The position numbers and the translations under genes are program-made. A stretch of DNA of 49,361 bases from a virus. Shown in pieces: positions 22-26,878 of the stretch; the first letter of the stretch is position 1; each line of letters starts with the position of its first letter. Where the stretch lies: IMG/VR virus record IMGVR_UViG_3300025430_000036, positions 1 through 49,361 of that record; one strand, 5' to 3'. The notes under the pieces are model-generated. The model was not told where the DNA came from. It did no database searches and worked only from the letters and a program-made list of their open reading frames with translations.

Positions 22-1494
22 TTACGAGCATACTTTTACATTATATAATTTCTCAAAACGATCTGCGTCCGCACGGTCATTGACCATTGGTTCGCCTTTG
101 ATATTAAGACTTGTGTTTAGCAACATTGGACAACCTGTTACTACATACCATTTTTCTAGGAGTTCTCTAATTCCTGTGCCATCTTGCGGTACTGTCTGTA
201 TACGACTAGTGCCGTCATGGTGAACGATAGCAGGAAATAAGTCAGGATTCCTACAATGACCGATGACTTGCATATACCTAGTATCAACGAAACCACTAGG
301 CAAATGAAAATACTCGTTGACATGCTCCTCCAGAATGACTGGCGCAAATGGTCTAAATTCTTGTCTACGTTTAATTGCATTTACTCGATCCTTTATGTCG
401 GGTCCGCGAGGATCGGCGAGGAGACTTCTATTTCCAAGTGCTCTTGGTCCAAATTCTGCTCTTCCGGAAGCAACTCCAACGATTTTATCTGATAATAAAC
501 TATCGAGGATGGCATTGACAGGGTACGGTCCGCTGATTTCTGTACCAAGGAATGCGTTTTTGAACTCAATTGGGCCGCCGTAGGCAAGGGCAGCCGCACC
601 AAGGCTAGAACCAGCATCGCCAGGATTAGGCATAATCCAAATTTTTTCAAAATATTCACCAAGATTTCTATTAGCTAAACAATTAAGGGCAACACCGCCC
701 ATGTAACACAAATTAGTGCTCCACCCAAAGTCTTTTGCGCGGCGCATAACATTATATATCAAATTTTCACATAAAGCCTGGGCCGAACTGGCAATATCTT
801 CAATATCGTAATGCTCTCGCCAGTCCCAGCTTACGCCAGTGTGTAAGTTTTCTTTAAAAGTAAGATCCCACTCATTTTCCACCAACTGCATCTTCATTAG
901 TGTACTTGCTTGCTGGCTACCATAAGCGGCCATGCCCATAGTAATGTACTCATCTTCCATGGGCTTTAACCCAATTTCTTGAGTCATTGCTGTATAAAAT
1001 AAACCTATGCTATGTGGATACTTTTGTCCCCATAAGCGTTTGTATCTAGCTTGCCCGTCAACATATTCTGCTCCCCAGATACTAATGGTATCCCATTCCC
1101 CAATAGCATCAATAATCACTACAGTAGCTCGATCAAACGGGCTAGTTTGAAATCCTGCCGCCGCATGGCTTAAATGATGGTTGTGTGTACTAACCGGCAA
1201 TTTACCAAAGAAACCATGTAGTTGGTTTTTTAATATACTCTTTGTAGATAGCTTGTTCCATTCAACACTTTGGCCGCTATACAATTGACGTAACTGTTTC
1301 TTCCAGGGCGTTTCATAATATGCGACATGATCAATCGTGTATTGACCTAGCTCTGCAATCATATCAATATGTATATTAGGGTCGTTCTTAATCTTGCTAT
1401 AACGCTCTGCGTGTCCAGCATATACAATCTCACCGTTGTTGATTACTGTGGCGGCGGCATCATGGAAGCCAGCCGAGATTCCCAATATGTTCAT
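22..1494 (-). CDS. NodU/CmcH-type O-carbamoyltransferase
   Basis: This protein (490 aa) should transfer a carbamoyl group from carbamoyl phosphate, by way of carbamoyl-AMP, to a hydroxyl of a sugar or similar acceptor. The N-terminal TsaD/Kae1-like domain opens with GISAGFHDAAA (residues 5-15). It has the metal-binding HNHHLSH (104-110), IDAIGEW (128-134) and MGGVALN (265-271). The YrdC-like C-terminal domain shows GRAEFGPRALGNRS (344-357), RPFAP (381-385) and NTSLN (460-464). The first Met is the right start, because the conserved motif begins four residues later, so the 35-base overlap with the upstream gene is real. It is shorter than the roughly 550-600 residues usual in the family, and the C-terminus stops soon after the NTSLN block. 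It is the last gene of the 22 kb cassette visible here. The family call is firm; the acceptor is unknown. Confidence 0.93.
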   Translation of the reverse strand: MNILGISAGFHDAAATVINNGEIVYAGHAERYSKIKNDPNIHIDMIAELGQYTIDHVAYYETPWKKQLRQLYSGQSVEWNKLSTKSILKNQLHGFFGKLPVSTHNHHLSHAAAGFQTSPFDRATVVIIDAIGEWDTISIWGAEYVDGQARYKRLWGQKYPHSIGLFYTAMTQEIGLKPMEDEYITMGMAAYGSQQASTLMKMQLVENEWDLTFKENLHTGVSWDWREHYDIEDIASSAQALCENLIYNVMRRAKDFGWSTNLCYMGGVALNCLANRNLGEYFEKIWIMPNPGDAGSSLGAAALAYGGPIEFKNAFLGTEISGPYPVNAILDSLLSDKIVGVASGRAEFGPRALGNRSLLADPRGPDIKDRVNAIKRRQEFRPFAPVILEEHVNEYFHLPSGFVDTRYMQVIGHCRNPDLFPAIVHHDGTSRIQTVPQDGTGIRELLEKWYVVTGCPMLLNTSLNIKGEPMVNDRADADRFEKLYNVKVCS

Positions 1495-2116
1495 ATAATT
1501 TGTCTGCTACATTTTTGTGACCAGCATCAAGGAAATGGCCGCCAGGGCCCTTTTTGCATCCGTTTGTCCATTCTGACATACCTGCTCGAGGCCAACCTAA
1601 AAACTGTTTATCATTGATTAATTTATTGTAGTGTTTATATTTAGAGCCAAATGTAGTTTTGTAGTATTCATTTCCTACTGTGGCTATCATAATATATCTA
1701 ACTGCTTGATTTTCTAAGAAGCTCTGCACAAATATAATATCTTGCAAATACTTAGCGTACAAATATTCGCTATTTTGGTGAAGTGTAATGTACTGCCTAA
1801 GTTCATCGCGCCAAGGCCAGTTTTGTCGAAATACCAATCGAGGCTGACTACCGGGCCAAACGCTAAAGTTCCCGCCGTCGTCACTAAATTCCATTCGTCC
1901 GGGACTGGACCAGCCAATTACAACTAAATCGGGTTTTTCGTTGGTGGCAAAGTAATTAAGTAATTGTCTTGCCATTCCGGTATTATTATTTGCCGGTTCG
2001 CCAAGATTAACTAGATCGTATGTGAGGGAATTAGCTAATAGCTGTGGCCAAGAGTTAGCTCTATCCTCTAGCTCTTCGCCAAAGGTAAAGCTATCGCCTA
2101 TTGTCAGTAATTTCAT
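1460..2116 (-). CDS. SGNH/GDSL hydrolase-like protein
   Basis: A 218-residue protein with an intact block I, GDSFTFGEEL (Gly7-Asp8-Ser9, Ser9 as likely nucleophile). Block III fits LGEPANNNTG near residues 57-66, and a C-terminal DAGH (197-200) fits the catalytic Asp-His pair. SGNH proteins cleave or transfer ester groups such as acetyl on sugars and lipids. There is no signal peptide, so it probably acts in the cytoplasm. It overlaps the carbamoyltransferase start by 35 bases, and a 69-base gap separates it from the upstream gene. It is one of seven SGNH-like proteins in the cassette and one of three with an unaltered GDS. Substrate and direction (esterase or acyltransferase) cannot be read from sequence. 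Confidence 0.8.
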   Translation of the reverse strand: MKLLTIGDSFTFGEELEDRANSWPQLLANSLTYDLVNLGEPANNNTGMARQLLNYFATNEKPDLVVIGWSSPGRMEFSDDGGNFSVWPGSQPRLVFRQNWPWRDELRQYITLHQNSEYLYAKYLQDIIFVQSFLENQAVRYIMIATVGNEYYKTTFGSKYKHYNKLINDKQFLGWPRAGMSEWTNGCKKGPGGHFLDAGHKNVADKLYEHIGNLGWLP

Positions 2117-2185
2117 TTGTATATAAACGGATCTCTTTTGCGTAGTTCTTTTAACTTACGACGATAGTTTATTTCTAATTTAATT

Positions 2186-2740
2186 CTATTGTATAGATGT
2201 TTTAACCAATTCATTGATGGTGTCTTTCATTAATTGTGCAGCATCATAGTGCGCTTGTTCTAGGGGGTGATTTTCTGGACCTACATCATATTTATTCTCT
2301 ACTGCCCACTGGTAAAAACCTCTTGGTTCAGTTGTATTCCATGATTCTGTAGCTAGAGGAAACATAAACCATTTAGAGTAATCCAATTTACCAGTAATTA
2401 TGCAATTATCAGCACAGGTAAACATATAGGGAATACGTTTACTTTCTAATAATTCTTGTAGTCTACGGATATGATGATCGCTGTTGACATCATTGTCTCT
2501 AGTAGCCCATGTCCAACACACAACAACAAATATGTCCTTAACATCAATAGTTTGATTAATGTATGCAATCATTGTACTGGCTATTTCTTTATTACCAATG
2601 CCAGGGTATGCACAACATACGTAATCGTCGGCTAGTAGTGCGGGGAAAGTACTACGGCTAAAACCGTAAGGGCCTCCGTGCGGACTATCTGCTAGCTCAC
2701 TGCCCCAGATAAAGCTATCACCCCCGGCTACTATAATCAT
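2186..2740 (-). CDS. Short SGNH hydrolase-like protein
   Basis: At 184 residues this is the smallest SGNH-like protein here. GDSFIWGSEL at residues 7-16 supplies the Ser nucleophile (Ser9). YPGIGNKEIAS (about 59-69) fits the Gly/Asn oxyanion region. The C-terminal block is ENHPLEQAH, with His158 and His164, and has no clear Asp three residues before a His, so the catalytic pair may be altered. VVCWTWATRD (about 91-100) resembles the VIMW strand of its paralogues. The start overlaps the end of the 376-residue gene upstream by 23 bases. Function is inferred only from the fold signature and context. Confidence 0.65.
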   Translation of the reverse strand: MIIVAGGDSFIWGSELADSPHGGPYGFSRSTFPALLADDYVCCAYPGIGNKEIASTMIAYINQTIDVKDIFVVVCWTWATRDNDVNSDHHIRRLQELLESKRIPYMFTCADNCIITGKLDYSKWFMFPLATESWNTTEPRGFYQWAVENKYDVGPENHPLEQAHYDAAQLMKDTINELVKTSIQ

Positions 2741-3848
2741 ATCCAGGCTTCATCATGTCTATCTGCATTTGCTTGTAGTTCATATCGTTCCAGCAAAAGT
2801 CGTATGTGCGGCTCACATCACCGATTTCAATACGGTATATATCTAAATGATTTTTAAGTATTGCCCAAACATTCTCAGGATAGTTATTACCAAAAGAGCC
2901 ATCTAAATCAATTTGTCCCAGGGGCAAATATCCAAGGCTTAAGTTAGGATCGTTACGATCACGATTGTTTTGTTCTAGCCAACGATAAAAGCCTTCTAGT
3001 TCTTCGGTATGCCACGGACAATCTTTACCGCCCATAACAACATCTCTGCCCCACTCTACATCAAACTCACCACTATAATATTTTAGTTCGTTAATAGCTT
3101 CACATACAGTCGCAGTTAAATCAGGGGCATGTTCATCACGATAGACTTCAAATAGTGTTTTACCTATCTGTGTCCAATGCATATACACTCCGCCAAACAC
3201 ACGATCGTACCCGTTGGTAATAAAGCCTTGGCGATGCTCAGGGTTTAAGTCATAGCGTTGTGCTTGTAGGAATGTAGTAATTTGGCTAGGACGAATAAAC
3301 TGCGGAGTGCTTGCGTACTTACGTTGACTTAGACATAAGTTTTCCATTTCGTGACATAAGTTGTTTAGTTGACGTATGGCATATTTTGTTTCGTAGTCAG
3401 CTAGTTTATAGTACTCACTTAAACCCCAAACAGTTCCTTGTAAGCGTTCAAAGTGATTGTGTAGGATATTCATTACACTATGTTTAAGCCCAAGTCCTAG
3501 GTTACTTTCGTCCCAGCCTATAGGATATTCGTCTCCAAAGCGTACGGTGTCTGGTGTAAAGTATTCTTCAATTACATATGGCTTAGACCAAATGCCTTTA
3601 CGATTAAACAAGTTGATTGTATAGATAGCTTCGTTAAGTTCTCTACACAAGTAAGACAAGTTACGTGCTGTGTGCGGAAAGCCCATAAAGCAGAAATTCT
3701 TTTCTACTAGGTTTCCTGTTTGTAGTAATCCCTTTAATGCTGATACCCAATCTTGAGCCAGTAAGGTATCGTTTGGAACGATAGTATAGTCTACTAAGTC
3801 ATTCTTATCTAACGGGTTTCGTAATACTACTTTAATTGATTGAGTCAT
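2718..3848 (-). CDS. Conserved protein of unknown function in the cassette
   Basis: A soluble 376-residue protein that I do not recognise. It has no signal peptide, membrane segment or nucleotide-binding loop. It is rich in aromatic and acidic residues, with a His-bearing helical stretch near residues 120-135 (SVMNILHNHFERLQG) and a patch GDEYPIGWDESNLG just before it. A Cys-Pro-Trp-His (near 277) and scattered Cys and His residues could bind metal, but no known pattern fits. It overlaps the N-twitch radical SAM gene upstream by 17 bases and the short SGNH gene downstream by 23 bases, so it is likely co-translated with both. It may be a partner or substrate carrier for the radical SAM enzyme; that is a guess from position. 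Confidence 0.6.
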   Translation of the reverse strand: MTQSIKVVLRNPLDKNDLVDYTIVPNDTLLAQDWVSALKGLLQTGNLVEKNFCFMGFPHTARNLSYLCRELNEAIYTINLFNRKGIWSKPYVIEEYFTPDTVRFGDEYPIGWDESNLGLGLKHSVMNILHNHFERLQGTVWGLSEYYKLADYETKYAIRQLNNLCHEMENLCLSQRKYASTPQFIRPSQITTFLQAQRYDLNPEHRQGFITNGYDRVFGGVYMHWTQIGKTLFEVYRDEHAPDLTATVCEAINELKYYSGEFDVEWGRDVVMGGKDCPWHTEELEGFYRWLEQNNRDRNDPNLSLGYLPLGQIDLDGSFGNNYPENVWAILKNHLDIYRIEIGDVSRTYDFCWNDMNYKQMQIDMMKPGYDYSSRG

Positions 3849-5124
3849 ACCATTCTAGTGCTTGGGGTCGTAAAGACATAATGTCTCTAAAAGTATACAC
3901 GTCTTTTCGGATTTTTTCAAGTTCTAATACACGATGTTTGCCCTTACGTAGTCCAGCTTCCCATTCATTGGGCCACTGTTCCCGGAACGTAGGTCTAGAT
4001 TTAAGTTGGACCATTATGTCACGTAGTGCGCTGCTTTCTAAAGTAGCAATTATTTCGTCTACCCAAGGATGTAGTATTTCCCTAGGTAGTGCTAACGGTG
4101 ACATAATGATATCCGGGCTAAAACTAAAAACTACTTTGGCTAATACATCTACTCCGAGTTCTTTGGCAAGCGTTTGTATCTTGTTAACTTCAAAGAGTCC
4201 TGGTGTAGTAAGAGTGAAGTCCATACGCATTTGGCGGCGGTGATTACTGAACTCAACTCCCTTGCGGAAGTTCTCAAGCCACTGATTAAAATCAAGACCT
4301 GATCTAATATACTCTCCAATTCTGCCCGTGCCATCGATGCTTGCGCAGATTTGCCAGTCACGTAGCCCAGATAAAATATCCCTGTACAGATTGATACCGC
4401 GATAATTGACGCGACTAAGATTTGTGTTATACCTAGCGTAAACATTTTTTCCATCTCCAAGTTCTACGATACGCTTCATGTAACGCCAATGCTGTTCGTA
4501 CATTAAAGGTTCGCCTCCCACCCAATACACCTCTTCCACACGGTGCTCCTCAACAGCAGTAGCAAACTCTTGCTCCACCTGGGTGTCTTGAAACTTTTCT
4601 ATTTCTACCTCGACTTCAGGGCGCATCCAATTATTCTTTGGATTTGCGAAGTCGATCATTCCGTGTTGTTTTTGTTCGCTTTCCCAAGCACTAGACAACA
4701 TGTCGCCGCACATGCGGCATTTAAAATTACAGAGATTACTAAATCTGTAATCCCACGAAACTGGTTTCATTGTCGTGTAGCCTGTCACATCAGTATGTTC
4801 CATAGCTTGTAAATACTTATGCCCAAACAAACTGTTAAAATAACTACGGTAAACGTCTGTGTTTAATAGTTTATCGTTGCATACTTCGCACTCGGGTAAA
4901 GTTTCTCCTGCCATCATACGTCTGCGTACACTTTTCATATGTTCGCTATTCCAGTGTTCGTCCAGGGTAATAGGAATGTACTTGCCTGTGCCCGACTTAG
5001 TATCTATGTACTGCTCAAAGTTTTGCGCAGGTTCGCGTGACGCACAACACATACGTCGCTCAGTCTGAGGACTTAGGTAAGTGTGTACCCACGGGGCAAG
5101 ACATAGTGTTTCAGGTTTGGTCAT
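3832..5124 (-). CDS. Radical SAM protein with N-terminal twitch domain (copy 1)
   Basis: A 430-residue enzyme. The [4Fe-4S]/S-adenosylmethionine core is CNFKCRMC (Cys132, Cys136, Cys139), followed by the SAM-binding glycine motif GGEP (203-206). In front of the core is a SPASM-like half domain, normally C-terminal in SPASM enzymes: LCLAPWVHTYLSP with Cys8, the pair Cys26-Cys27, a helix typified by WNSEHMKSVRRRMMAGE, and Cys79-x2-Cys82. This matches the family known as N-terminal-twitch radical SAM proteins, found in phages and bacterial glycan loci. The twitch Cys residues probably hold an auxiliary Fe-S cluster. It overlaps the upstream SGNH gene by 14 bases. Class is certain; the reaction is unknown. 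Confidence 0.92.
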   Translation of the reverse strand: MTKPETLCLAPWVHTYLSPQTERRMCCASREPAQNFEQYIDTKSGTGKYIPITLDEHWNSEHMKSVRRRMMAGETLPECEVCNDKLLNTDVYRSYFNSLFGHKYLQAMEHTDVTGYTTMKPVSWDYRFSNLCNFKCRMCGDMLSSAWESEQKQHGMIDFANPKNNWMRPEVEVEIEKFQDTQVEQEFATAVEEHRVEEVYWVGGEPLMYEQHWRYMKRIVELGDGKNVYARYNTNLSRVNYRGINLYRDILSGLRDWQICASIDGTGRIGEYIRSGLDFNQWLENFRKGVEFSNHRRQMRMDFTLTTPGLFEVNKIQTLAKELGVDVLAKVVFSFSPDIIMSPLALPREILHPWVDEIIATLESSALRDIMVQLKSRPTFREQWPNEWEAGLRKGKHRVLELEKIRKDVYTFRDIMSLRPQALEWYDSIN

Positions 5125-5782
5125 TAATTAACTTATAGTAATAGTCGGCTATTTCTTCGTGGACCATATGATCTGTAATATGATAATACGGGCGATGTAC
5201 TAGTGTTTTATCAACGTAGTCCCACAAACATATTTCGCTACGATATTCCCGATATGATTCAAAATAGTCTTGTTTGACTTCGCCGTATTTTGGATGTTCA
5301 AATCCGCCTTGATCAAATGTAAACGGAATACCACTTGTTACTAATTTAGATAGCGTACCTTCGATGATTAACTCATTTTGGTGTACAGCAATATCTAAAT
5401 CAAAAAACTCATTGTGGTATAATTTTAACAGAGATAACTGTGTTTCGTCAAATACAGTAGTTTCATTTAAACTTGTTACAGAATAGCTTGTTACATTTTT
5501 AACAGGATCTGGATTGGTAATGTCAACGTAACGATCTAATAGATTATCAACGGTGTTGTCTTTAGTTAGTGGCACGTCTTTACGTATACTTGATGTTGCT
5601 AGATATATTATGTAATCCGCACCTTGCTCTATAGCACGTTGTACTTGTAACGCTATTTGAAAATTGCTTGCAGCCACACTACACAAATTTGTAACAGGAA
5701 CACGTTTAGCTAAACGGTCTGCCCAAGACAATCCGTGCTCAGGGTCACTAAATCCAAAACTATCTCCACAAATGTATATCAT
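5111..5782 (-). CDS. SGNH hydrolase-like protein
   Basis: A 223-residue protein that begins with MIYICGDSFGFSDPEHG; Ser8 is the expected nucleophile. SVAASNFQIALQVQRAI (about 37-53) corresponds to the block with Gly/Asn oxyanion residues, but the usual Gly is replaced. YIIYLATSS (58-66) is the next strand, where paralogues have VIMW. The C-terminal DHMVHEEIADYYYKL (Asp204, His205, His208) is the likely Asp-His element. It overlaps the GT10-like gene upstream by 4 bases (ATGA) and the radical SAM gene downstream by 14, which suggests coupled translation. The SGNH fold is likely; catalysis is less sure because blocks II and III are poorly kept. Confidence 0.68.
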   Translation of the reverse strand: MIYICGDSFGFSDPEHGLSWADRLAKRVPVTNLCSVAASNFQIALQVQRAIEQGADYIIYLATSSIRKDVPLTKDNTVDNLLDRYVDITNPDPVKNVTSYSVTSLNETTVFDETQLSLLKLYHNEFFDLDIAVHQNELIIEGTLSKLVTSGIPFTFDQGGFEHPKYGEVKQDYFESYREYRSEICLWDYVDKTLVHRPYYHITDHMVHEEIADYYYKLINDQT

Positions 5783-6714
5783 TTTGTAAACTCAAGTAAT
5801 GGCTTTATAATTTCATCGTTGAACATTTTTACTAATAATTCGTTATTATAAAAGTGATTACGGTTGTGTTCTAACTTTTCTTTTGTTACAGAATCTGTGA
5901 ATAATTTCCCACGTTTAAAATCCACGTACATCTGATCAAGTTGTCCAACAATAGCATTTAATCTATCTATGTTATTAAACATAGTGTCGTAGCTTTCATC
6001 AATAATGTGACCAAATGTTTCAAACCCTGCTGTGTGTAAGTACTTTAATGTTTCTGGACTTCCCCATACCACAAATGGATGTTGAAATGCGATCGGTTTA
6101 AATGTTTTTTCAGATATAAATGTAGGATAACGTGTACTGGCTTCTGAAACTAAACTAAATGTAGTTGATGTAAACCAAGCAGGATTTATGTATCGTTGCT
6201 CCACATCACCATCAATTATTTTATCGTTGGGTAACATAATTCCCTTTGATGTATAACTATACAAGGAGTCTGCTAAGTATGGTTCTACTTGTTTTAATAT
6301 TTCATCTCTATGCGGTCTAGTTAAACGCATAGTTGACAAAAAGAACTTATCCTGTGTACTAGTAATTTTAATTTTATCGTAGCCTAGTGCAATATACCAA
6401 AGTGCTTCGTTAAACCAAATCCAGTTTGCAGATTTTAGTGTTAGTATTTGATCTGTTGCTTGACTAGTAACAGTAATATCGTTGTCCCACATATATTCTA
6501 CAACAATTTTAAACCCTTGATTGATGTAGCGGTTAACCCAGTTATCTGTTTTATATTCCATACAAGGAACTACAATTATATCAGTTGCGGGATCGTATGT
6601 TTGAGCAAAGTCAATTGGTGCCCTAACAAAATACTCGTCAAACAGTTTCTCAAGATGGGCGGCGCTCCTAATAGTACTGTAACGCTCAGGATGGTATAAT
6701 AATCTTTTACGCAT
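5779..6714 (-). CDS. GT10-like glycosyltransferase family protein (EKT motif), copy 1
   Basis: This protein (311 aa) has FSLVSEAS (186-193) followed by SEKTFKPIAFQHPFVVWGS (201-219), then a conserved LHTAGFETFGHIIDESYD tail. The S/T-E-K-T-x-K/R-P element followed by a 'G/hP-hhxxG' strand resembles the donor-binding motif of GT10 alpha-1,3-fucosyltransferases (FEN...TEKL...G..PVV.G). Three paralogues in this window share it, with otherwise divergent N-termini. The N-terminal half has Rossmann-like strands (DIIVVP, KIVVEYMWD). It overlaps the neighbours by 8 and 4 bases. It is likely a GT-B transferase using a nucleotide sugar in the cytoplasm, but the donor is not deducible and a non-catalytic homologue cannot be excluded. 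Confidence 0.55.
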   Translation of the reverse strand: MRKRLLYHPERYSTIRSAAHLEKLFDEYFVRAPIDFAQTYDPATDIIVVPCMEYKTDNWVNRYINQGFKIVVEYMWDNDITVTSQATDQILTLKSANWIWFNEALWYIALGYDKIKITSTQDKFFLSTMRLTRPHRDEILKQVEPYLADSLYSYTSKGIMLPNDKIIDGDVEQRYINPAWFTSTTFSLVSEASTRYPTFISEKTFKPIAFQHPFVVWGSPETLKYLHTAGFETFGHIIDESYDTMFNNIDRLNAIVGQLDQMYVDFKRGKLFTDSVTKEKLEHNRNHFYNNELLVKMFNDEIIKPLLEFTK

Positions 6715-14599: not shown

Positions 14600-15432
14600 T
14601 TTGTAATTACATTATTATAATGTAAAACAATGCTTTCGTCATCCTTTGCGGTTGGACACATCGTACATACCCGATGTGGCTTACCATAATTGTTTAAAAA
14701 TGCTTCTAGTTCAGCATCAGTACTAGTGGGAGTAACATACTTGCCTTTGTATGGATCCCATGCAGGATCAGTATTACCAAAACGGTTTAATGTTTGCTCT
14801 AACCCACCTAGTGTACTACACTTATACAGCCTTCCATTAAACATAAGTGGACATTTCTGTTGCATACAGATTTCAAATGACTCTACAGGATTAGACTCAA
14901 ACGGCATCATGTTTGGATAATCGTTTTTATAATACTTAATAAATGTTAGTGGACGATTTACTTGAAATCGCAAGCCGTTTGTAGTTTTATAACGATAGAT
15001 GCCAAACTCGTAAACAGGTTCCCACTTATACATAGAAAATATTTTACGAATAACTGCTTCTACACGCTCGCTGTGTTGATGTACTGTAATTTTGAATACA
15101 AAGTTACCTACTTCGTGCGCTGTTTCTAATACGTCTAAATGTTTGTCTAATAGTTCGCCGTTAGTACTAAAGCGTATAGGGCTGTTAGGTAACAACTCAC
15201 GAAGTCCACGTATCCATTGTTTAAGTTCAGGATTGATTAACGGTTCGCCGCCCATAATACCAAAGTCTTCAATGTCTACACGATCTAGCCACGACTCTAT
15301 TTCGGCCTTACCCTTAGCCCACGGAACATATCCTGTATGTTTTAAATCTGCATAGTTACTACAGCCAAGGCAACTTAGATTACAAAACTGTGTAACCATC
15401 ATTTCCACAAACGGCAATTGAAATTTACTCAC
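14596..15432 (-). CDS. Radical SAM protein with C-terminal twitch-like domain
   Basis: This compact 278-residue enzyme differs from the five N-twitch copies. Its core CNLSCLGC (Cys17, Cys21, Cys24) is right at the N-terminus. MGGEP follows at 60-64, and the auxiliary Cys set is C-terminal: Cys189, Cys194, Cys205 and Cys256-x2-Cys259. The segment CPLMFNGRLYKCSTLGG has the 'G.lykC' feel of a normal SPASM/twitch domain. The 37-residue distance from Cys24 to GGEP is short. It overlaps the GT10-like gene upstream by 8 bases and the SGNH gene downstream by 4. Its place between the sugar-transferase part and the radical SAM part of the cassette suggests action on a sugar-containing intermediate, which is inference. 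Confidence 0.9.
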   Translation of the reverse strand: MSKFQLPFVEMMVTQFCNLSCLGCSNYADLKHTGYVPWAKGKAEIESWLDRVDIEDFGIMGGEPLINPELKQWIRGLRELLPNSPIRFSTNGELLDKHLDVLETAHEVGNFVFKITVHQHSERVEAVIRKIFSMYKWEPVYEFGIYRYKTTNGLRFQVNRPLTFIKYYKNDYPNMMPFESNPVESFEICMQQKCPLMFNGRLYKCSTLGGLEQTLNRFGNTDPAWDPYKGKYVTPTSTDAELEAFLNNYGKPHRVCTMCPTAKDDESIVLHYNNVITK

Positions 15433-16465
15433 TAAATGTTTCCTTAATTTTAGAATATGTTAAAGACATAAACACCGCATAATTATGATCTAATATGTCT
15501 TGCATCTCTGCTAACTTCTCTACTAGTTGTTTGGGTGTCCATTGACTAATCTGCTCTAACAACTTTTCTATTTCGTGTATTCTATGATGCATACCATATT
15601 CATCGTAGCCTTCGTCCCATATATTGTTAAATGTACGAAATCCCAAGCGACGTAGGTTAGCAAGATGATTGCGACCTGCCATAGATATAAACGGGCGACG
15701 TGCTATAATAGGGCGCCAAGTCTTTTCTGTGGCAAAACATAAATTACCACGAACAAATGTTTCATGTACTACATCAACAAATATATCCGTATAGTATTTT
15801 AAAATATTAAGATTAGCTGGCAACTGTATTGGATAGTAATCCGATTGCTTAATATTTACAGGGCAAGTCTTAATAAACTCAATGTCCTCGGGAATAATGT
15901 GTGGACAAGTTTTTAAAAATTCTATTACTTCTGGCAGTATATCACAACGATGTTTGACTAGATCTTCTAGGCCCACAAAGTCTACCATGTCATCGTGTTT
16001 GGTAATATAGTTACTGTTTAGTCCAGAATTAAATGTTTGAAATAGTTTATCATTATACTTAGTACGCAGTATAGTACCAATCCAAACTCTGTTCCAATTA
16101 CTTTTACCTATAAAGTGCCCAAAGTGTTTTGTTGGTGTTCGTCCTGTGTCAACGGGGTTTTGTTTAACCCAATCTTGTATAATAGGAACTTCGTACCAGG
16201 CTCGTGGGTCTTTGGTTATCTTGTACTCAGGATGACGTTCTGCCATGTTACCGGTGTTGATAGTAATCATTGACTTAGGATATCCTGTTTCGGCACAAAA
16301 TGCATCTAAGTGGCGGTACACGCCATTTCCTTCGCAACATGATCCTTCAGGAGTAACATTAAGCGTAGTAGGTTCATTATTAACAAAACAACGATATAGG
16401 TGGATAGCAAGTAAATCCTTGCGCCAAAACTTATTGTCGTTAATTCCTAATTTATATGTTGTCAT
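15425..16465 (-). CDS. GT10-like family protein (EKT motif), copy 3
   Basis: A 346-residue protein with ATEKTWRPIIARRPFISMAG near residues 243-262, followed by LRRLGFRTFNNIWDEGYDEYG, the same pattern as copies 1, 2 and 4. The N-terminus has TPEGSCCEGNGVYRHLDAF (about 38-56). That 'EG.C.E..G.Y..LD.F' pattern is shared only with the adjacent copy 4, so the two are a tandem duplication with a common acceptor-side domain. HFIGKSNWNRVWIGTIL (about 111-127) resembles the start of a nucleotide-sugar transferase Rossmann unit. It overlaps copy 4 by 4 bases and the radical SAM gene by 8. The transferase call rests on motif resemblance alone. Confidence 0.52.
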   Translation of the reverse strand: MTTYKLGINDNKFWRKDLLAIHLYRCFVNNEPTTLNVTPEGSCCEGNGVYRHLDAFCAETGYPKSMITINTGNMAERHPEYKITKDPRAWYEVPIIQDWVKQNPVDTGRTPTKHFGHFIGKSNWNRVWIGTILRTKYNDKLFQTFNSGLNSNYITKHDDMVDFVGLEDLVKHRCDILPEVIEFLKTCPHIIPEDIEFIKTCPVNIKQSDYYPIQLPANLNILKYYTDIFVDVVHETFVRGNLCFATEKTWRPIIARRPFISMAGRNHLANLRRLGFRTFNNIWDEGYDEYGMHHRIHEIEKLLEQISQWTPKQLVEKLAEMQDILDHNYAVFMSLTYSKIKETFSE

Positions 16466-17424
16466 TCTACGTAAGTAACTTGTTTATTAAATTTACCACT
16501 TTTTAGTAACTCGTAATTGTGGTCTAGTATGGGTTGCATACGTTGATACATGTCTTGCAATTCATTAACCGACTTCTTAGACAACGAATGTATTAGGTTT
16601 AGTATTGCTATGTACTTTTCCTTGGGATTTAATCCATCGTAATCTTCAGGCCAGAACTCATGAAATGTTTCAAAGCCCATTTGTCTTAGATATATTAAAA
16701 AGTTCTGCGACGCCATCATAATAAAAGGTTTCTTCAACAGCATAGGTCGTATTGCTTTTTCTGTAGGACTAAATGTTCTACCTAATGTAAATGTTTCTGA
16801 TACTACGTCAATTAAAAAGTCTGGGTAGTATTGTCCCAATTGATCTGTAAATGTCTTTGTGCCTTGCCCAATACGATAAGTGCTTGTTTCTTCCAATAAT
16901 GCAGGGAAGTCGTCAAGCCGTTCCATAAAGTCTTTAAACGATTGCGGGTGCATTTTAAATATTGGTTCTATTTCAAATGTTGTACGCATATCTTCGTTGT
17001 GCGGATCGTATCTAAAGTTTAAGGATGTCTTATCTTTGTGATGTTTATTAAGATGCCCAGCTAGGCCAATCCTGCTCCATGTAGCCCTATTATAAAGTGC
17101 GCCAAATACGTGTTTGCCATTCCAATGGTGCAATGGTGTATAATCTGAGTCTGCAGGGAAAGTTACATACTGATATACTGCATCTGTTACAATTCTAATA
17201 CGATACTTATCCGTTGGGCTTTCTTCTACTGCGTTATGGGTTGATATAGTAACATCTTTAAAAGAGAAGTGGTCTAATATTTTATATAATCCTAGATTTT
17301 CTAAGCAAGGCCCTTCTCTGACTTCTAATACAATCCAACGGTCTTGATTTACTACCAAGAATTTAATTAAATCGTCGCGATTCCATATCACAGTATCATT
17401 GGCATCGATTATAAACTTGTTCAT
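16462..17424 (-). CDS. GT10-like family protein (EKT motif), copy 4
   Basis: A 320-residue protein with SPTEKAIRPMLLKKPFIMMAS near residues 215-235 and YLRQMGFETFHEFWPEDYDG after it. It differs from copy 3 in having EKA instead of EKT. The N-terminal VREGPCLENLGLYKILDHF (about 35-53) matches the equivalent element of copy 3. FPADSDYTPLHHWNGKHVFG fills the middle of the N-terminal half. It follows two tandem SGNH genes and overlaps them and copy 3 by 4 bases on each side. It is likely a cytoplasmic glycosyltransferase, or a regulatory paralogue of one if the Thr to Ala change matters. Confidence 0.52.
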   Translation of the reverse strand: MNKFIIDANDTVIWNRDDLIKFLVVNQDRWIVLEVREGPCLENLGLYKILDHFSFKDVTISTHNAVEESPTDKYRIRIVTDAVYQYVTFPADSDYTPLHHWNGKHVFGALYNRATWSRIGLAGHLNKHHKDKTSLNFRYDPHNEDMRTTFEIEPIFKMHPQSFKDFMERLDDFPALLEETSTYRIGQGTKTFTDQLGQYYPDFLIDVVSETFTLGRTFSPTEKAIRPMLLKKPFIMMASQNFLIYLRQMGFETFHEFWPEDYDGLNPKEKYIAILNLIHSLSKKSVNELQDMYQRMQPILDHNYELLKSGKFNKQVTYVE

Positions 17425-18143
17425 ACTAATTGTCTTTCGACTAAAAATTTATAAAAGCTGTCGGCATATATTTTATGTACATAAGGTAGTGGATGCCCTG
17501 TATCGTTTACACCGCCGTTGCCATCTATACTGTTTTCTCTAGCTACTGTTAGTATTGGTGTCCCATCATAAAAATTGTTCCAATCTATTAGTTTATACAA
17601 ATTATTGTAACGGTCAAACTTAGTAAATGGTCTTATTGTTTTAAAGACATAAGGTATGTTTAGTTGTTTAAGTGTGTTTTGTAAAGATATCATTTTTATT
17701 AAACTAGCAAACATGTGTTCGTTGGCTGTTGTAATTTTATAATATTCTTTAAACACACGACCAATGCTATCATCTAATTGTTCGTTAATATATCCACAGC
17801 CAAAGATCCAATTCTTTTGTACATAATCTTGATCATTAACAGGAATAATTACTTTACCCTTCCAATCATTTTGTTTTGCTTGAAACTCTGACGTATACGT
17901 ACTGTCTCTAAATTTAGCGATATCGTGTACTCTAAAGTCTAAACGATTAACATACGCCCATTGTATAATTACAAGATCGTAAGGTCTTTCGCCAAGTTCC
18001 GACACAGTGGATTCATGCAAGTACGTATTACCCGAGCCAGCTTGTGCTAAGTTTACTATTTGCGTTCCAAGTTTTTCTTCAATGTAATATGGCCAGGTTT
18101 CTGGTCCACGACTAATAGAAGTTCCGTTAACTAGTATTCTCAT
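17421..18143 (-). CDS. SGNH-like protein of the NDQD subfamily (copy 2, GTS)
   Basis: A 240-residue protein with block I NGTSISRGPETWPYY (Gly7-Thr8-Ser9), AGSGNTYLHESTVSELGER (about 35-53), DLVIIQWAYVNRLD, and the subfamily signature NDWKGKVIIPVNDQDYVQKNW near residues 93-113. The C-terminal NDTGHPLPYVH (about 213-223) holds Asp214 and His217. It is highly similar along its length to the next gene upstream (18140-18847), so this is a tandem duplicate. It overlaps that gene by 4 bases and the GT10-like gene downstream by 4. The fold is likely SGNH; the signature is of unknown meaning and may bind the substrate. Confidence 0.7.
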   Translation of the reverse strand: MRILVNGTSISRGPETWPYYIEEKLGTQIVNLAQAGSGNTYLHESTVSELGERPYDLVIIQWAYVNRLDFRVHDIAKFRDSTYTSEFQAKQNDWKGKVIIPVNDQDYVQKNWIFGCGYINEQLDDSIGRVFKEYYKITTANEHMFASLIKMISLQNTLKQLNIPYVFKTIRPFTKFDRYNNLYKLIDWNNFYDGTPILTVARENSIDGNGGVNDTGHPLPYVHKIYADSFYKFLVERQLV

Positions 18144-18847
18144 ATAATATTGTGTTGTTGTATATACTCAATTATATTTTTTGCATAGTACTTGTGTGCA
18201 TTCTGATCTGGATGGACTCCGTCTGATTCGACCCAGTTGTTTTCTTTACATATTGCTTGCAGGTCAACTTCGTATATACGATCCCTATCAAGTAAATTAT
18301 ATAGGTGATCAAATCTTAGAAATTGTCTGAACTGCCTAGCAAATGTAAACAAATAAGGCTGATTAATACTTTTTAAAAATCCTTGCAGAGCAATTACTTT
18401 GATTAGATTAGAATAAAATTGTTGTCCACGTGAGGTATTCGAGTAGTAACCGTCAAATGCTGCACGTAAGTTTACATCTGGATCATTGTTGAGGTATCCG
18501 CAACCAAATATCCAATCCTTCTCTACATAGTCTTGATCATTGGTTGGGAATATAACTTTTTCTTTCCAATCATTCATTTTAGCTTGGTGTACAGAATTAT
18601 AGATAGTATTACTAAACGGCTTAACATTTTTAACTTTAAAATCAACGCGATCAAACGGTGACCACATTACTATAACAAGATCATAGTTACGCTGACCAAG
18701 TTCGGCAATAGTTGTTTCTTGTATGTACGTATTGCCAGCAGCAGCCAAGGATAAATTGACCAGTTCTGCTCCATAGGCATCTTGCACTAAGTATGGCCAC
18801 GATCCAGGCCCACGACTAAAACTACTACCGTTAACTAGTATATTCAT
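18140..18847 (-). CDS. SGNH-like protein of the NDQD subfamily (copy 3, GSS)
   Basis: A 235-residue tandem paralogue of the preceding entry, with NGSSFSRGPGSWPYL (Gly7-Ser8-Ser9), AAAGNTYIQETTIAELGQR, DLVIVMWSPFDRVD and NDWKEKVIFPTNDQDYVEKDW. WIFGCGYLNND follows, as WIFGCGYINE does in copy 2. The C-terminal SDGVHPDQNAH carries Asp209 and His212. The DGxHP element is the usual catalytic Asp-His block of SGNH proteins, so this is the best active-site candidate in the subfamily despite the GSS in block I. It overlaps both neighbours by 4 bases. Confidence 0.72.
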   Translation of the reverse strand: MNILVNGSSFSRGPGSWPYLVQDAYGAELVNLSLAAAGNTYIQETTIAELGQRNYDLVIVMWSPFDRVDFKVKNVKPFSNTIYNSVHQAKMNDWKEKVIFPTNDQDYVEKDWIFGCGYLNNDPDVNLRAAFDGYYSNTSRGQQFYSNLIKVIALQGFLKSINQPYLFTFARQFRQFLRFDHLYNLLDRDRIYEVDLQAICKENNWVESDGVHPDQNAHKYYAKNIIEYIQQHNII

Positions 18848-19740
18848 TCTCGTGCCATTGGCCCTAAGTTTTTGTATTGACTTTTGTAGTGATGTTTAAA
18901 GAAACGACTTTCCTCTACATCCATGTCTACAATAGGCAAACCCAGGCGTGTGCGTAATGTATCTCCTACACTACGACATTGATCTGGGCCATCTTGTTCA
19001 AACGATTTCCATAACATAGCAAGTGTATCAAAGTCTTGTACTTGCTTGTAATCCCATCCTTCTAACATCATCATGTACGTGCCAAGTCTAGCACCGTATA
19101 TAGCCCAGAAGCCGTTGTCTGCATCTGCGCCAACGCTTTGCCATATACACAAATGATCGTAGTTACGGCTGTGTACACGCTTTTCAAATTCTTCTAGAGA
19201 TATTTTTGCGCCGCGATCAAGTGCCATCTTAACACCTTCGCGGAATCCTGCTCTCCATGCCTGGAACGGAGTTGCATTAGGATATGTTGTACTGTAACAA
19301 TCATTCATTGCCCAGTAGTTGGGATAAAAACAAAACTCTACATCATTTTCTGCTGTGCCATCGCTGGCTTCGTGTGTACGCATGTTGTGGACAAAATCTT
19401 TTGTCCAACAACTCATACCACCGTTGCCATACATTAATCCATTAACAGCGTTACGAGCCCGCCAACGAAAAACACAATCGCGGTTAGTATCGTCAAGGGC
19501 CAGTTGTAGGTTAAAGAAAGTAGGCTCTGGAATGTTATCTCCATCAATAAGAATAAAGCGGTCAGTGCCGCTAGCTTCCGCGGCGGCTTTGTGTGCAGCA
19601 TCTGATCCCTTAACTCCATCCACGCGACGGGCCCAGGGAACCATATTTTGTATATGGATCCAATTTTGTTCTTTATTTGGTTCATCATATGTTAAGTAGA
19701 TGCAGTCCAAATCTGCAACGTCAATTATTTCGGTGGCCAT
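18844..19740 (-). CDS. GT-A-like glycosyltransferase (DGDN motif)
   Basis: A 298-residue protein with a GT-A-type nucleotide-sugar site. It starts with LDCIYLTYDEPNKEQNW (11-27), continues through PWARRVDGVKGSDAAHKAAAE (35-55) and reaches FILIDGDNIPEP (62-73), in which Asp66-x-Asp68 would bind the metal and diphosphate. GNGGMSCWTKDF (105-116) and HLCIWQSVGADADNG are further conserved-looking blocks. This type of protein is common in T4-like phages of aquatic bacteria, where its target is unknown. It overlaps the small gene upstream by 20 bases and the SGNH gene downstream by 4. Glycosyltransferase is the best call; the sugar is unknown. Confidence 0.68.
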   Translation of the reverse strand: MATEIIDVADLDCIYLTYDEPNKEQNWIHIQNMVPWARRVDGVKGSDAAHKAAAEASGTDRFILIDGDNIPEPTFFNLQLALDDTNRDCVFRWRARNAVNGLMYGNGGMSCWTKDFVHNMRTHEASDGTAENDVEFCFYPNYWAMNDCYSTTYPNATPFQAWRAGFREGVKMALDRGAKISLEEFEKRVHSRNYDHLCIWQSVGADADNGFWAIYGARLGTYMMMLEGWDYKQVQDFDTLAMLWKSFEQDGPDQCRSVGDTLRTRLGLPIVDMDVEESRFFKHHYKSQYKNLGPMARE

Positions 19741-20098
19741 AGTATTCTGTGTTGTTATAAGTTTCGCCAGGTTCTATTAGTAGCCCTGCGTGATTTTTTA
19801 CTACCAAAAATCCTGTATCAGATTTTATTAATTGTACACGATACCCTGCATCAGTGTCAATCCGTTTAAGTTTGCCGTTGACTACAGAATAGTGAAAGTA
19901 TGTATCATATTCTTCTTTGGTTACAACCAAATACGGATAGTCGTATGCAGTATCATTAACAATCATTGTGCCTAGAACTATGTCGCCTTGCTCGTTATAA
20001 TACAATCTGTATTCAATTGTAGCAGGAACGCCCAGGTCTGTTAAACGTTCAACTTCTGCCCACCAGGCATCAATTTCTTCTTGATTCATAGTATTCAA
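19721..20098 (-). CDS. Small protein of unknown function
   Basis: A 125-residue protein with a predicted beta-rich centre (IEYRLYYNEQGDIVLGTMI, YPYLVVTKEEYDTYFHYSV, GYRVQLIKSDTGFLVVKN) and an acidic N-terminal helix (QEEIDAWWAEVERL). There is no signal peptide, metal site or catalytic motif. It overlaps the GT8-like gene upstream by 29 bases and the GT-A-like gene downstream by 20, so it is probably translated with both. I do not recognise a family. A small accessory or scaffold protein for the neighbouring transferases is possible but unproven. Met1 and Met3 are both possible starts. Confidence 0.6.
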   Translation of the reverse strand: MNTMNQEEIDAWWAEVERLTDLGVPATIEYRLYYNEQGDIVLGTMIVNDTAYDYPYLVVTKEEYDTYFHYSVVNGKLKRIDTDAGYRVQLIKSDTGFLVVKNHAGLLIEPGETYNNTEYYGHRNN

Positions 20099-20921
20099 TT
20101 AACTCGTTTGTAGCGTATGTCTTATCGTGATAGTGTACTGGCGCATATTGATTTAAGTTATTAATACGTATAACATCGCCGTCGCGCTCGTGTACGACTG
20201 TATCCAACCAACTACGTGCATCGCTCCATCCATTGAAGCCAGACTTCATGTGTACAAAATTAACAAAGTCCATACTTGGCATAGTTACTGTTTCTTCACC
20301 AACCATTAATGCCGCTAGTGCGTATAGTACATCTGTGCTAGGCTCATCTTCAAAACACTTTTTAAGTCCTTTGCTTACAGTTTCCCACTCGTACTGTAAA
20401 TATTGTGCGGCTTGAAAAAATCCTGCTGCCTCTTGACTAAATCTAAAATACATTAGGCCGTTATATACGTCTGGTAAGTTGTTGGCATCAAACAGTTCTC
20501 TATATTTGCGTACAGTACTGTTAAGTCCGTTGAAGCTCTTAGCACCTGTGCTTAAACAAACATTCTTTAATCTAAATGCAGTCCACCAATGGTCAATTGA
20601 CCTTGTAAACAATAGGTCCGACTCTAACTTAATAGTTTCTTTAAACGGTGTAAGACGAAAGACTTGCCACTCGTTAGCAAACTTTCTAGTATTGGTAGGA
20701 TCATTATAATCAACGGGCAGATCAATAATATAATCAAAAACATCACGATGGCGTTCATTTACCAACTCCTTTGTTTGGGCATCAACAATTACCGCATACC
20801 GGTTATTCTTTTGCGTTGCCTTAATGTTAAGCGCCTGCAAGTAAGCAAGCTCCAGATAATTAACTGCTTCTGTATTTTGAGCGAAAGTCACAAAGCCTTG
20901 CTGTTCTTTATGTTGGCTCAC
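20070..20921 (-). CDS. GT8-like glycosyltransferase (ESD variant)
   Basis: A 283-residue protein with a GT8-like beginning, GFVTFAQNTEAVNYLELAY (9-27), and a Rossmann strand YAVIVDAQTK (42-51). KLESDLLFTRSIDHWW (98-113) follows, in which Glu100-Ser-Asp102 takes the place of the usual DxD. The C-terminal part is long and has FNGWSDARSW followed by VHYHDKTYATNELIEYY. It is paralogous to the next gene upstream, whose DSD falls at the same residues, 100-102. It overlaps both neighbours, by 14 and 29 bases. The change of the first metal ligand from Asp to Glu is conservative, so activity is plausible; donor unknown. Confidence 0.65.
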   Translation of the reverse strand: MSQHKEQQGFVTFAQNTEAVNYLELAYLQALNIKATQKNNRYAVIVDAQTKELVNERHRDVFDYIIDLPVDYNDPTNTRKFANEWQVFRLTPFKETIKLESDLLFTRSIDHWWTAFRLKNVCLSTGAKSFNGLNSTVRKYRELFDANNLPDVYNGLMYFRFSQEAAGFFQAAQYLQYEWETVSKGLKKCFEDEPSTDVLYALAALMVGEETVTMPSMDFVNFVHMKSGFNGWSDARSWLDTVVHERDGDVIRINNLNQYAPVHYHDKTYATNELIEYYESRRN

Positions 20922-21723
20922 AGATGGCCTCCACTACTTGTTCAAAGTCTCTGCTGAGTAGATAATCTTTATCCATTACATGTATATTTTGATATGGTAT
21001 TACAGTAGCTTCGTTGTTGTAATAGATTTGTACAAAATTGTCTGTAAGCATTATACGCTCAATCTTTTGATCCACAGTAAGCATACGCCATGGAATGCCT
21101 TGACCTTCGTTTAAGGTGTAACCACTAAGGATACAGTTAGCAATAGCGAAAGCATAGTCGTTTCTGTAATTTCCTTCTCGTATGTTATACAAGGCTCGAT
21201 AGTATCTATAGTTTCGTTGTATTCGTCCAATGAGGTTAAAAAATAATTTTGCACGTTCTGTTTTTCTAAAAAGTACTACAGTTGCCCATACATAGGGCAA
21301 ACTTGTTTCTCCCATAACCTCATAGCTGTAGTTTTCAAGGTTACGATTGTGATGCATTAGTTTATAATCAAATTCAGTTTTAAATAATGTTAATAAACTG
21401 TCATCTAATACAAGATAGTCTGAATCTAATAGAATTGTTTCTTCATATGGACTAAGATCGTATGCTAAGTAACGACCAAAGTTGCGCCAGGTGACTTGTA
21501 CGTCGTTTACATTTCTAAAATTGCCATCTGTGTTATCAATACGAATCACATTGTCGTAATTAAATTTAGGATTAGACACAAAATCTGTAATTAATGTTAC
21601 AGGCAATTTTAAATTGTGTTTAATTAATCGGCTAACACGATCTGCAATTTCTACATAGTCAACACCTGTGTTAAATGCAAATAACACTACGCCTCTAGAT
21701 TTTACGGAGTCGTTTAAGTTCAT
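20908..21723 (-). CDS. GT8-like glycosyltransferase (DSD)
   Basis: A 271-residue protein: GVVLFAFNTGVDYVEIADRV (11-30), PVTLITDFVS (41-50), then ETILLDSDYLVLDDSLL (95-111) with the DxD metal site Asp100-Ser-Asp102. MGETSLPYVWATVVLFRKT (about 143-161) and the C-terminal IHVMDKDYLLSRDFEQV, with its His-x2-Asp-Lys, are compatible with GT-A family members that use a C-terminal His. It is the second gene of the cassette. The start overlaps the 106-residue gene upstream by 29 bases. Product: probable cytoplasmic glycosyltransferase, sugar unknown. Confidence 0.68.
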   Translation of the reverse strand: MNLNDSVKSRGVVLFAFNTGVDYVEIADRVSRLIKHNLKLPVTLITDFVSNPKFNYDNVIRIDNTDGNFRNVNDVQVTWRNFGRYLAYDLSPYEETILLDSDYLVLDDSLLTLFKTEFDYKLMHHNRNLENYSYEVMGETSLPYVWATVVLFRKTERAKLFFNLIGRIQRNYRYYRALYNIREGNYRNDYAFAIANCILSGYTLNEGQGIPWRMLTVDQKIERIMLTDNFVQIYYNNEATVIPYQNIHVMDKDYLLSRDFEQVVEAICEPT

Positions 21724-22015
21724 TATGTTCTTGATGCCAACGGTTCATTACTTTTTGATATTGTTCATTGCACAACTTTGTAAACTCTATAGGGTTCACG
21801 ATATGTATTGGGTTGTGATACACATCTTCTAAATAAAAATTTTCATTTAATGTTTGCAAATTAGCAAACATGATCATTTCCGGAGTAACTTTAAACAATC
21901 CGCCATTGTATGGGACGTGAAGATCTGTTTGGATTTTTTCACGCAAAATGGTTTTATTAACTTGATAATCGGTTGCCCGTTTGATTTCGGTTGTAAGTTT
22001 TTCGAGTTCGCTCAT
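21695..22015 (-). CDS. Small conserved-looking phage protein, first gene of the cassette
   Basis: A 106-residue protein with no recognised domain. A helical N-terminus (LEKLTTEIKRATDYQVNKTI) leads to VPYNGGLFKVTPEMIMFANL and YLEDVYHNPIHI, then a basic C-terminal helix with NRWHQEHNELKRLRKI. The compact mix of helix and short strands suggests a small DNA- or protein-binding accessory protein, without proof. It directly follows the promoter and terminator complex at 22026-22069. The ATG lies about 19 bases after the predicted transcription start and has no clear Shine-Dalgarno sequence in the TTTTATTTTATA leader, so translation may be leader-poor. It overlaps the next gene by 29 bases. Confidence 0.6.
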   Translation of the reverse strand: MSELEKLTTEIKRATDYQVNKTILREKIQTDLHVPYNGGLFKVTPEMIMFANLQTLNENFYLEDVYHNPIHIVNPIEFTKLCNEQYQKVMNRWHQEHNELKRLRKI

Positions 22016-22025
22016 TATAAAATAA

Positions 22026-22058
22026 AAGGTGTAGATAGTTATTATACTATACTACACC
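22026..22058 (-). terminator. Rho-independent terminator of the tail-fibre operon
   Basis: A hairpin whose outer stem is the complementary pair GGTGTAG/CTACACC and whose inner stem is atagt/actat, separated by a one-base bulge, with a six-base loop. On the minus strand it is followed at once by TTTTATTTTAT. It lies 24 bases beyond the stop of the last fibre gene (22082) and 10 bases ahead of the first cassette gene. It is the only intrinsic-terminator-like structure I see in the window, and it marks the boundary between tail and cassette transcription units. Confidence 0.7.
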
Positions 22059-22069
22059 CCTTAGGTCAA
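22041..22069 (-). promoter_or_regulatory. Sigma70-type promoter for the radical SAM/glycan cassette
   Basis: On the minus strand TTGACC (bases 22069-22064) and a perfect TATAAT (22046-22041) are separated by exactly 17 bases. This is close to the consensus of the host housekeeping sigma factor. The predicted start of transcription is near 22034, about 19 bases before the first cassette gene. The -10 lies in the loop of the terminator hairpin, so transcripts starting here cannot form the full hairpin. This implies expression by unmodified host RNA polymerase, that is early in infection, unlike the tail genes. It is predicted by sequence only. Confidence 0.62.
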
Positions 22070-24874: not shown

Positions 24875-24897
24875 GTTAACTCTTTATGTATTCTATA

Positions 24898-24904: not shown

Positions 24905-24911
24905 CCACTTT

Positions 24912-26858: not shown

Positions 26859-26878
26859 ATTACGTTCTCTTTATAGTA

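Follow-up and report, generated by a model that had tools for sequence, protein, structure and literature searches.

A conserved row of radical SAM enzymes downstream of tail-fibre genes suggests a glycan-building and glycan-editing pathway in uncultured phages

Mycobacteriophage-encoded glycosyltransferases reportedly decorate capsid or tail proteins (Freeman 2023, cited in PMC12619734). In the host-recognition hypervariable region of pelagimyophages, a tail-fibre region, glycosyltransferases are numerous and some genomes also have radical S-adenosylmethionine (SAM) cassettes (PMC7029224); a jumbo cyanophage cluster combines carbamoyltransferases with glycosyltransferases and was interpreted as a surface-polysaccharide or metabolite pathway (PMC7824862); and moraphages, which are uncultured aquatic jumbo phages, have four core putative glycosyltransferases (PMC12619734). 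Here we analyse the uncultured virus record IMGVR_UViG_3300025430_000036, whose full 49,361 bases are referred to as the window and whose main genes all lie on the minus strand. Its positions 22–22015 hold an island of 24 minus-strand open reading frames (ORFs) encoding six radical SAM enzymes, seven SGNH-like proteins, four GT10-like and three GT-A-like glycosyltransferases and one NodU/TobZ-type carbamoyltransferase (Table 1). Re-analysis bore out the collinearity, the gene overlaps and these enzyme counts, all of which a first-pass annotation made from the sequence alone had described. We propose, at odds of about even (0.5), that the island encodes a cytoplasmic pathway by which uncultured aquatic phages of one clade, most of them jumbo phages and all with contractile tails, build and edit a glycan, with the phage's own fibres as the likeliest acceptor.

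A search of viral contigs anchored on the radical SAM protein R5 returned at least 599 stretches, every one encoding a relative, and the best 80 of these (71–90% identity) were studied, with 60 NodU-anchored and 53 GTc-anchored loci as independent anchors. The order fib-a-GTa1-GTa2-b-GTc-R1-R2-R3-R4-R5-X-SGNH-SGNH-NodU is kept in nearly all 80 R5 loci. By best-hit assignment, R1 is present in 71 of them, R2 in 75, R3 in 69, R4 in 78, protein X in 79 and NodU in 74, contig ends notwithstanding. Likewise, R2–R5 and X are present in 53–55 of the 60 NodU-anchored loci, and fib (52), GTa1 (51), GTa2 (53) and R1 with R2 (49) recur among the 53 loci anchored on GTc, for which distance correlations are unreliable owing to a second GTc copy being picked in some cases. 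Chance clustering of the island genes is ruled out by an order kept across so many phage contigs. The genes thus form one linked unit, as had been claimed, the order holding for all three anchors; nor were the core genes found singly and scattered in related phages, the outcome that the first-pass annotation had named as fatal to the idea of one pathway.

Between the first radical SAM gene and NodU, the 80 loci together contain 400 radical SAM, 115 SGNH, 37 EKT, 70 X and 41 unclassified genes. Several genes of the window (SG1, SG2, SG3, SG5, R0 and the EKT gene at 9227–10306) are rare in other loci, and relatives carry other cargo, including an Stf0 sulphotransferase and a B12-binding radical SAM protein. 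The island is an ancient fixed core (R1–R5, X, NodU and the GT-A-like proteins) with swappable GT10-like and SGNH cargo at fixed sites. The 24 genes are thus not members of equal standing: the core radical SAM genes are fixed, and EKT and most SGNH genes are swapped. The case for a pathway is strengthened by these cargo swaps inside a fixed core, together with the fusion of R3 to R4 and the intact motifs described below.

R1–R5 belong to the NCBIfam subfamily N_Twi_rSAM (NF033640), scoring 292.6–398.5 bits against a curated cut-off of 170, whereas R0 has a Pfam PF04055 match and, at 34.4 bits, falls below that cut-off. Pairwise identity among R1–R5 is just 21–33%; the CxxxCxxC motif and the four N-terminal cluster cysteines are 100% invariant in 62–76 orthologues per paralogue. 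The tree resolves one group per paralogue with essentially one member per phage, support being 1.0 for R1 and R2 but lower (0.44–0.61) for R3, R4 and R5. In 11 phage loci, some from the same contig (the 11 include L021, L022, L024, L027, L041, L043, L055 and L209), R3 and R4 are naturally fused into a protein of 841–852 amino acids (aa), and it is because of this fusion that the R3 gene is missing in some loci. Large records carry additional N_Twi_rSAM genes far from the island, giving 6–15 copies per record in all; the records of L050, L053, L058 and L083 are among the large relatives in which numbers of up to 15 were seen.

In the NodU protein both Pfam carbamoyltransferase domains are above cut-off (130 and 160 bits). 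Its score against the nodulation equivalog NF041651 is 139.4 bits versus a cut-off of 1000, so it is a member of the superfamily and not nodulation NodU itself, and its closest Protein Data Bank (PDB) matches are the antibiotic carbamoyltransferases TobZ and GdmN. G7, S9, N45 and H194, which comprise the block-I serine, the block-V histidine and an extra asparagine, are invariant across 22 SGNH sequences including all seven of the window. Only one SGNH protein (1460–2116; DUF6071) passes a Pfam cut-off, the other six being sub-threshold or without a match. By alignment the four EKT proteins are a single family; at the positions compared with the E..EK donor-site motif of GT10 enzymes, E191 and K203 are invariant and E202 nearly so. 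For a predicted model built on 5779–6714, the top PDB match was 2nzw, an alpha-1,3-fucosyltransferase of family GT10 (E=1.3e-5; probability 1.00, but template-modelling score just 0.46 and identity 10%), and the EKT proteins tested matched no GT10 sequence model in either Pfam or NCBIfam. They are accordingly classed, from the predicted fold, as GT10-like only. PDB-sequence profile searches with X, EKT, GTc, GTa1 and R5 gave no reliable match.

Protein X has a confident predicted structure (AlphaFold2 (AF2) predicted local distance difference test (pLDDT) 88.7). Its model has zero PDB fold matches at E<=0.001 and nine structural matches, all of them predicted viral proteins, so the predicted fold is apparently confined to phages. 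Sequence relatives of X were sought in Vibrio K566, Atu_ph07 and C48C1 and none was found; one Atu_ph07 protein matches X by predicted structure, without a sequence match. An X-like fold also makes up about half of a 768-aa uncultured-phage protein (BFVD A0A6J5T9P3).

Beyond the end of the window, relatives carry past NodU, on the opposite strand, genes for a DegT aminotransferase, a nucleoside diphosphate (NDP)-sugar 4,6-dehydratase and often a thymidylate synthase. Of the 53 NodU loci that extend far enough, 46 have both DegT and the 4,6-dehydratase, the median distance to DegT being 5 kb, and PF01370 occurs in 23 of 23 large records. A glycan pathway is the best reading because NDP-sugar genes, glycosyltransferase-like proteins, a carbamoyltransferase and SGNH proteins keep company. 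That the island serves one glycan-directed pathway, as was suggested earlier, is supported by these two sugar genes and by the GT10-like fold of the EKT proteins, and we regard it as quite probable.

From the observed genes, intact motifs, order, linkage, promoter and neighbouring sugar genes we infer a pathway in which the individual reactions, their sequence and the acceptor are all conditional. The 4,6-dehydratase and DegT would supply an NDP-4-amino-4,6-dideoxy-type sugar, and GTa1, the glycogenin-like GTa2 and GTc would start a chain on the acceptor, to which the swappable GT10-like enzymes would add phage-specific sugars. R1–R5, which would not be interchangeable, may then act one after another on the sugars by radical chemistry, epimerising, dehydrogenating or deoxygenating them, and R3 and R4 would work as a pair. 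Finally, acyl groups would be added or removed by the SGNH proteins and carbamoyl groups added by NodU. Cargo swaps would alter the outer decoration and leave the radical core unchanged, and the likeliest acceptor would be the phage's own serine/threonine (S/T)-rich tail-fibre proteins, encoded directly upstream. The product need not be a polymer; a short oligosaccharide is as likely. More tentatively still, five N-terminal-twitch radical SAM enzymes in this jumbo-phage clade might edit a finished glycan into carbamoylated, acylated sugars that lie beyond ordinary sugar-nucleotide pathways, either on the fibres or on the infected cell.

Adjacent genes of the island overlap by 1–35 nucleotides (nt) at 22 of 23 junctions, the sole exception being a 69-nt gap from 2116 to 2186; the many 4-nt overlaps are robust, and those of 14–35 nt depend on the choice of first start codon. 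A terminator and a promoter appear to be merged upstream of gene a, at 22028–22069, and similarly in L210, L215 and other relatives: the promoter overlaps an inverted repeat (GGTGTAG...CTACACC, 22028–22058) that is followed by a T-rich run. Across 81 relatives scored for sigma-70-type promoters, the interval separating fib from gene a reached at least 9/12 in 60 (9.4 expected) and at least 10/12 in 40 (1.5 expected), versus 20 and 4, respectively, of 91 comparison gaps before fib. Folding of the fib/gene a gap was strong in the relatives (median z −2.9). A general promoter and terminator scan of the window from 12 to 31 kb found promoter-like sites no commoner than in shuffles, and the gene a promoter is convincing because of the comparison across 81 relatives, not because of the single-window scan. 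As judged from these signals, the island seems to be a separate transcription unit behind a hairpin. The earlier idea of a single translation-coupled operon stays plausible, with a promoter of its own now added, and late co-expression with the fibre genes is, given that promoter, not to be assumed.

As to the acceptor, a virion protein comes slightly short of an even bet, the host envelope is somewhat less probable, and anything else is rather unlikely. The virion is favoured by position, solubility and missing export genes: by hydropathy the cassette proteins have no membrane segment, and the 23 large phage records, in which controls were positive, lack an initiating sugar transferase, a Wzx-type flippase and GtrA (PF04138), an absence that is suggestive, the records being possibly incomplete. 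The same two observations count against a possible, if doubtful, alternative in which this pathway acts on the host, its soluble enzymes lengthening and editing O-antigen or capsule units that are lipid-linked at the inner-membrane face and exported by a host flippase, such that receptors are masked and superinfection is blocked; with no membrane protein in the cassette, the export machinery would necessarily be the host's. An envelope acceptor gains from the separate sigma-70-type promoter, which suggests transcription by unmodified host polymerase, from the dehydratase and DegT, which are typical O-antigen sugar genes, and from the published accounts of pelagimyophage and jumbo cyanophage clusters, which favour a change of surface polysaccharide (PMC7029224, PMC7824862). 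Several further points weigh against glycan editing on the fibres. Having a promoter of its own, unlike the fibre genes, the island may be read early, which would suit remodelling of the host envelope as well as, or better than, virion decoration. Synteny of fibres and island may reflect the common ancestry of one phage clade; for the same reason, shared ancestry explaining part of it, linkage alone is no proof of a single pathway. GTa1 and GTc have conserved acidic DxD-like motifs only and, no database relative proving such activity, are putative glycosyltransferases. We know of no reaction for any N_Twi_rSAM enzyme, so that the sugar substrate of R1–R5, like their reactions, is argued from gene company only, and SPASM/twitch enzymes often act on peptides.

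An improbable alternative is modification of protein: R1–R5 would epimerise, cross-link or otherwise alter residues of the fibres, or of a small protein such as a or b, and these residues would then be decorated by the glycosyltransferases and the carbamoyltransferase. An N-terminal SPASM domain, found most often in peptide-modifying radical enzymes, is present, and next to the cassette lie the fibre genes and the small conserved ORFs a and b. However, family scans of the window, confined to ORFs of 80 aa or more, recognised no leader-binding domain of ribosomally synthesized and post-translationally modified peptides (RiPPs) and no precursor-like peptide, and on a bacterial contig (L103) the neighbours of a radical SAM row include an NDP-sugar epimerase and a GTc relative. 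Less probable again is a diffusible small molecule made during infection, for instance an antibiotic or saccharide of aminoglycoside type. Aminoglycoside-type pathways likewise include NodU/TobZ, DegT, dehydratase and twitch radical SAM enzymes, and the PDB neighbours of NodU are antibiotic enzymes, but the cassette shows no self-resistance or exporter gene, and both its fixed site by the tail fibres and its diverse GT10-like and SGNH cargo better suit a variable surface glycan. In other phages, hydroxymethylated bases can carry groups added by glycosyltransferases and carbamoyltransferases, and DNA had been listed earlier, beside host surface and virion, as a possible target. Such modification of phage DNA is hardly credible here: the nearby PF00303 protein is a true thymidylate synthase (NCBIfam 364 bits versus a cut-off of 327), PF00303 is absent from 10 of 23 large records, no base hydroxymethylase was found (other entry routes to DNA modification were not searched), and the island sits with tail genes. 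Within the original list DNA is thus disfavoured, whereas a surface polymer and the virion both remain.

Table 1 Features of the window, with the evidence for each assignment
Feature	Position	Strand	Evidence
NodU/TobZ-type O-carbamoyltransferase (core)	22..1494	-	Pfam Carbam_trans_N and _C; PDB matches TobZ/GdmN; 74/80 loci
SG7, SGNH-like, frequent core partner	1460..2116	-	DUF6071 28.9 bits vs cut-off 27; Ser/Asn/His invariant
SG6, SGNH-like	2186..2740	-	Invariant Ser/Asn/His; adjoins X in many loci
Protein X, no Pfam/PDB relative, apparently phage-only fold	2718..3848	-	79/80 loci; AF2 pLDDT 88.7
R5, N-terminal-twitch radical SAM (core)	3832..5124	-	NF033640 292.6 bits; 7/7 cluster Cys invariant
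SG5, SGNH-like (cargo)	5111..5782	-	Invariant Ser/Asn/His; rare in other loci
EKT protein, GT10-like GT-B glycosyltransferase (cargo, R4/R5 site)	5779..6714	-	AF2 pLDDT 89.6; best PDB fold 2nzw
R4, N-terminal-twitch radical SAM (core)	6707..7921	-	NF033640 344.3 bits; R3 fusion in 11 phage loci
R3, N-terminal-twitch radical SAM (core)	7918..9237	-	NF033640 398.5 bits; N-terminal SPASM
EKT protein, GT10-like (cargo)	9227..10306	-	Alignment of EKT family
R2, N-terminal-twitch radical SAM (core)	10303..11652	-	NF033640 310.9 bits; own clade, support 1.0
SG4, SGNH-like (cargo)	11636..12358	-	Invariant Ser/Asn/His
R1, N-terminal-twitch radical SAM (core)	12327..13715	-	NF033640 300.4 bits; own clade, support 1.0
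SG3, SGNH-like (cargo)	13715..14599	-	Invariant Ser/Asn/His
R0, short radical SAM without N-terminal twitch (cargo)	14596..15432	-	PF04055 54 bits; NF033640 34.4 bits
EKT protein, GT10-like (cargo)	15425..16465	-	EKT alignment; 5 close relatives, all at same cassette position
EKT protein, GT10-like (cargo)	16462..17424	-	Paralogue of 15425..16465, 30% identity over full length
SG2, SGNH-like (cargo)	17421..18143	-	43% identity to SG1; invariant Ser/Asn/His
SG1, SGNH-like (cargo)	18140..18847	-	Invariant Ser/Asn/His
GTc, putative GT-A glycosyltransferase (core)	18844..19740	-	DGDN motif invariant; R1 and R2 downstream in 49/53 loci
Small conserved protein b	19721..20098	-	42/53 GTc-anchored loci
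GTa2, GT8/glycogenin-like putative glycosyltransferase (core)	20070..20921	-	Weak glycogenin profile match, E=0.04; 53/53 loci
GTa1, putative GT-A glycosyltransferase with DxD (core)	20908..21723	-	D100/D102 invariant; 51/53 loci
Small conserved protein a, first gene of island	21695..22015	-	49/53 loci
Sigma-70-type promoter TTGACC-17-TATAAT ahead of gene a	22041..22069	-	Comparison across 81 relatives
fib, conserved S/T-rich tail-fibre-like protein directly upstream of island	22082..23059	-	52/53 loci, upstream of GTc
Tail-fibre module: S74 chaperone, collar-like, Gly-rich, N-terminal domains in common	23087..30402	-	Syntenic in long phage regions
4207-aa conserved protein, baseplate wedge, gp25, hub/base proteins, contractile tail	30399..49360	-	Upstream of island wherever fetched regions reach

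Read from 49 kb down to 22 kb, the rest of the window encodes a contractile-tail baseplate (gp25, wedge and hub-like proteins), followed by a 4,207-aa protein and then by six fibre-like proteins. The wedge protein is ~34–36% identical to those of isolated jumbo phages, among them CBB, RaK2, PA5oct and SCTP-2. The conserved 4,207-aa protein (30399–43022), between baseplate and fibres, has a weak CBM5/12 match only. Six long phage regions keep the order of baseplate, 4,207-aa protein, fibres and island as far as the fetched stretch reaches, and in every region checked the island lies downstream of tail-fibre genes. Protein X and small proteins a and b had been left unnamed by the first-pass annotation. 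Repeats inside the cassette are short pairs only and chance-like.

Outside this clade, isolated phages contain almost nothing that resembles the island. Relatives of the radical SAM proteins were found in two Vibrio jumbo phages (~24% identity) and also in a single-cell marine virus fragment; no GTc relative was found in isolated phages. NodU has relatives in cyanophages and pelagiphages (~26–37%), and identity reaches 46% in the single-cell marine virus just mentioned; deposited Pelagibacter phages match the island via NodU only. A cellular origin was rejected for five hits in marine metagenome-assembled genomes (MAGs) on account of their phage gene order, plus fibre genes where the contig reaches: L088, L089, L090, L091 and L097 are probably phage contigs that binning placed in MAGs named Pelagibacter, Rickettsiales, Betaproteobacteria, Pacearchaeota and Verrucomicrobia. 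N_Twi_rSAM arrays do occur on Bdellovibrionota-like chromosomes; bacterial genomes, for the most part Bdellovibrionota-like MAGs, have up to 33 matches each, often in many-gene rows (L093 6672–20609, L101, L103, L105). Orthologues of R1, R2 and R5 (45–57% identity) lie close to obgE in a Bacteriovoracaceae contig (L093), and those of R2 and R5 near the gene for electron transfer flavoprotein–ubiquinone oxidoreductase (ETF-QO) in an unassigned contig (L094). In a sample of 59 genomes from one such phylum, 18 had the subfamily above cut-off, versus 0 of 14 control genomes, and GT2 genes lie within ~10 kb of N_Twi_rSAM genes, as judged by eye, in 7 of 9 bacterial genomes with the family.

Islands of phage glycosyltransferases are known; we did not find described a fixed row of five radical SAM genes across hundreds of uncultured phages. 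The present locus connects N_Twi_rSAM, a subfamily with no function known so far, to a pathway that can be tested, and Bdellovibrionota-like bacteria are indicated as a cellular reservoir of these enzymes. It is also a specific setting in which to ask why so many aquatic phages keep sugar genes beside tail fibres. The split into core and cargo also provides a natural variant series for assigning genes to decorations. If the proposal is true, it would give N_Twi_rSAM its first function and reveal a new kind of viral sugar chemistry, in which phages exchange outer decoration by swapping GT10-like and SGNH genes.

Among known systems, glycosylation of mycobacteriophage virions is the model for the favoured acceptor, and to our knowledge it involves no radical enzymes and no carbamoylation or acylation genes. 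Vibrio phages K566 and K567 are the only isolated phages with clustered relatives of the island's radical SAM proteins, there beside a PagP gene, but identity is ~24% and X, NodU and the glycosyltransferases were not found in them. In K566 (L007 14705–33347) the radical SAM cluster is a separate one with the PagP-like gene inside. The bacterial arrays resemble the island in being rows of the same subfamily, and one Bacteriovoracaceae contig has the R1, R2 and R5 orthologues by obgE and GT2; unlike the island, they show no NodU, X or EKT proteins in the stretches examined. The published description of moraphages mentions neither radical enzymes nor a carbamoyltransferase (PMC12619734), and the jumbo cyanophage paper is likewise without mention of radical SAM (PMC7824862), the NodU similarity of these phages to the island being just ~26–37%. 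Finally, the pelagimyophage region is variable, with radical SAM genes as additions (PMC7029224), whereas in the island five ordered paralogues, NodU and X are fixed.

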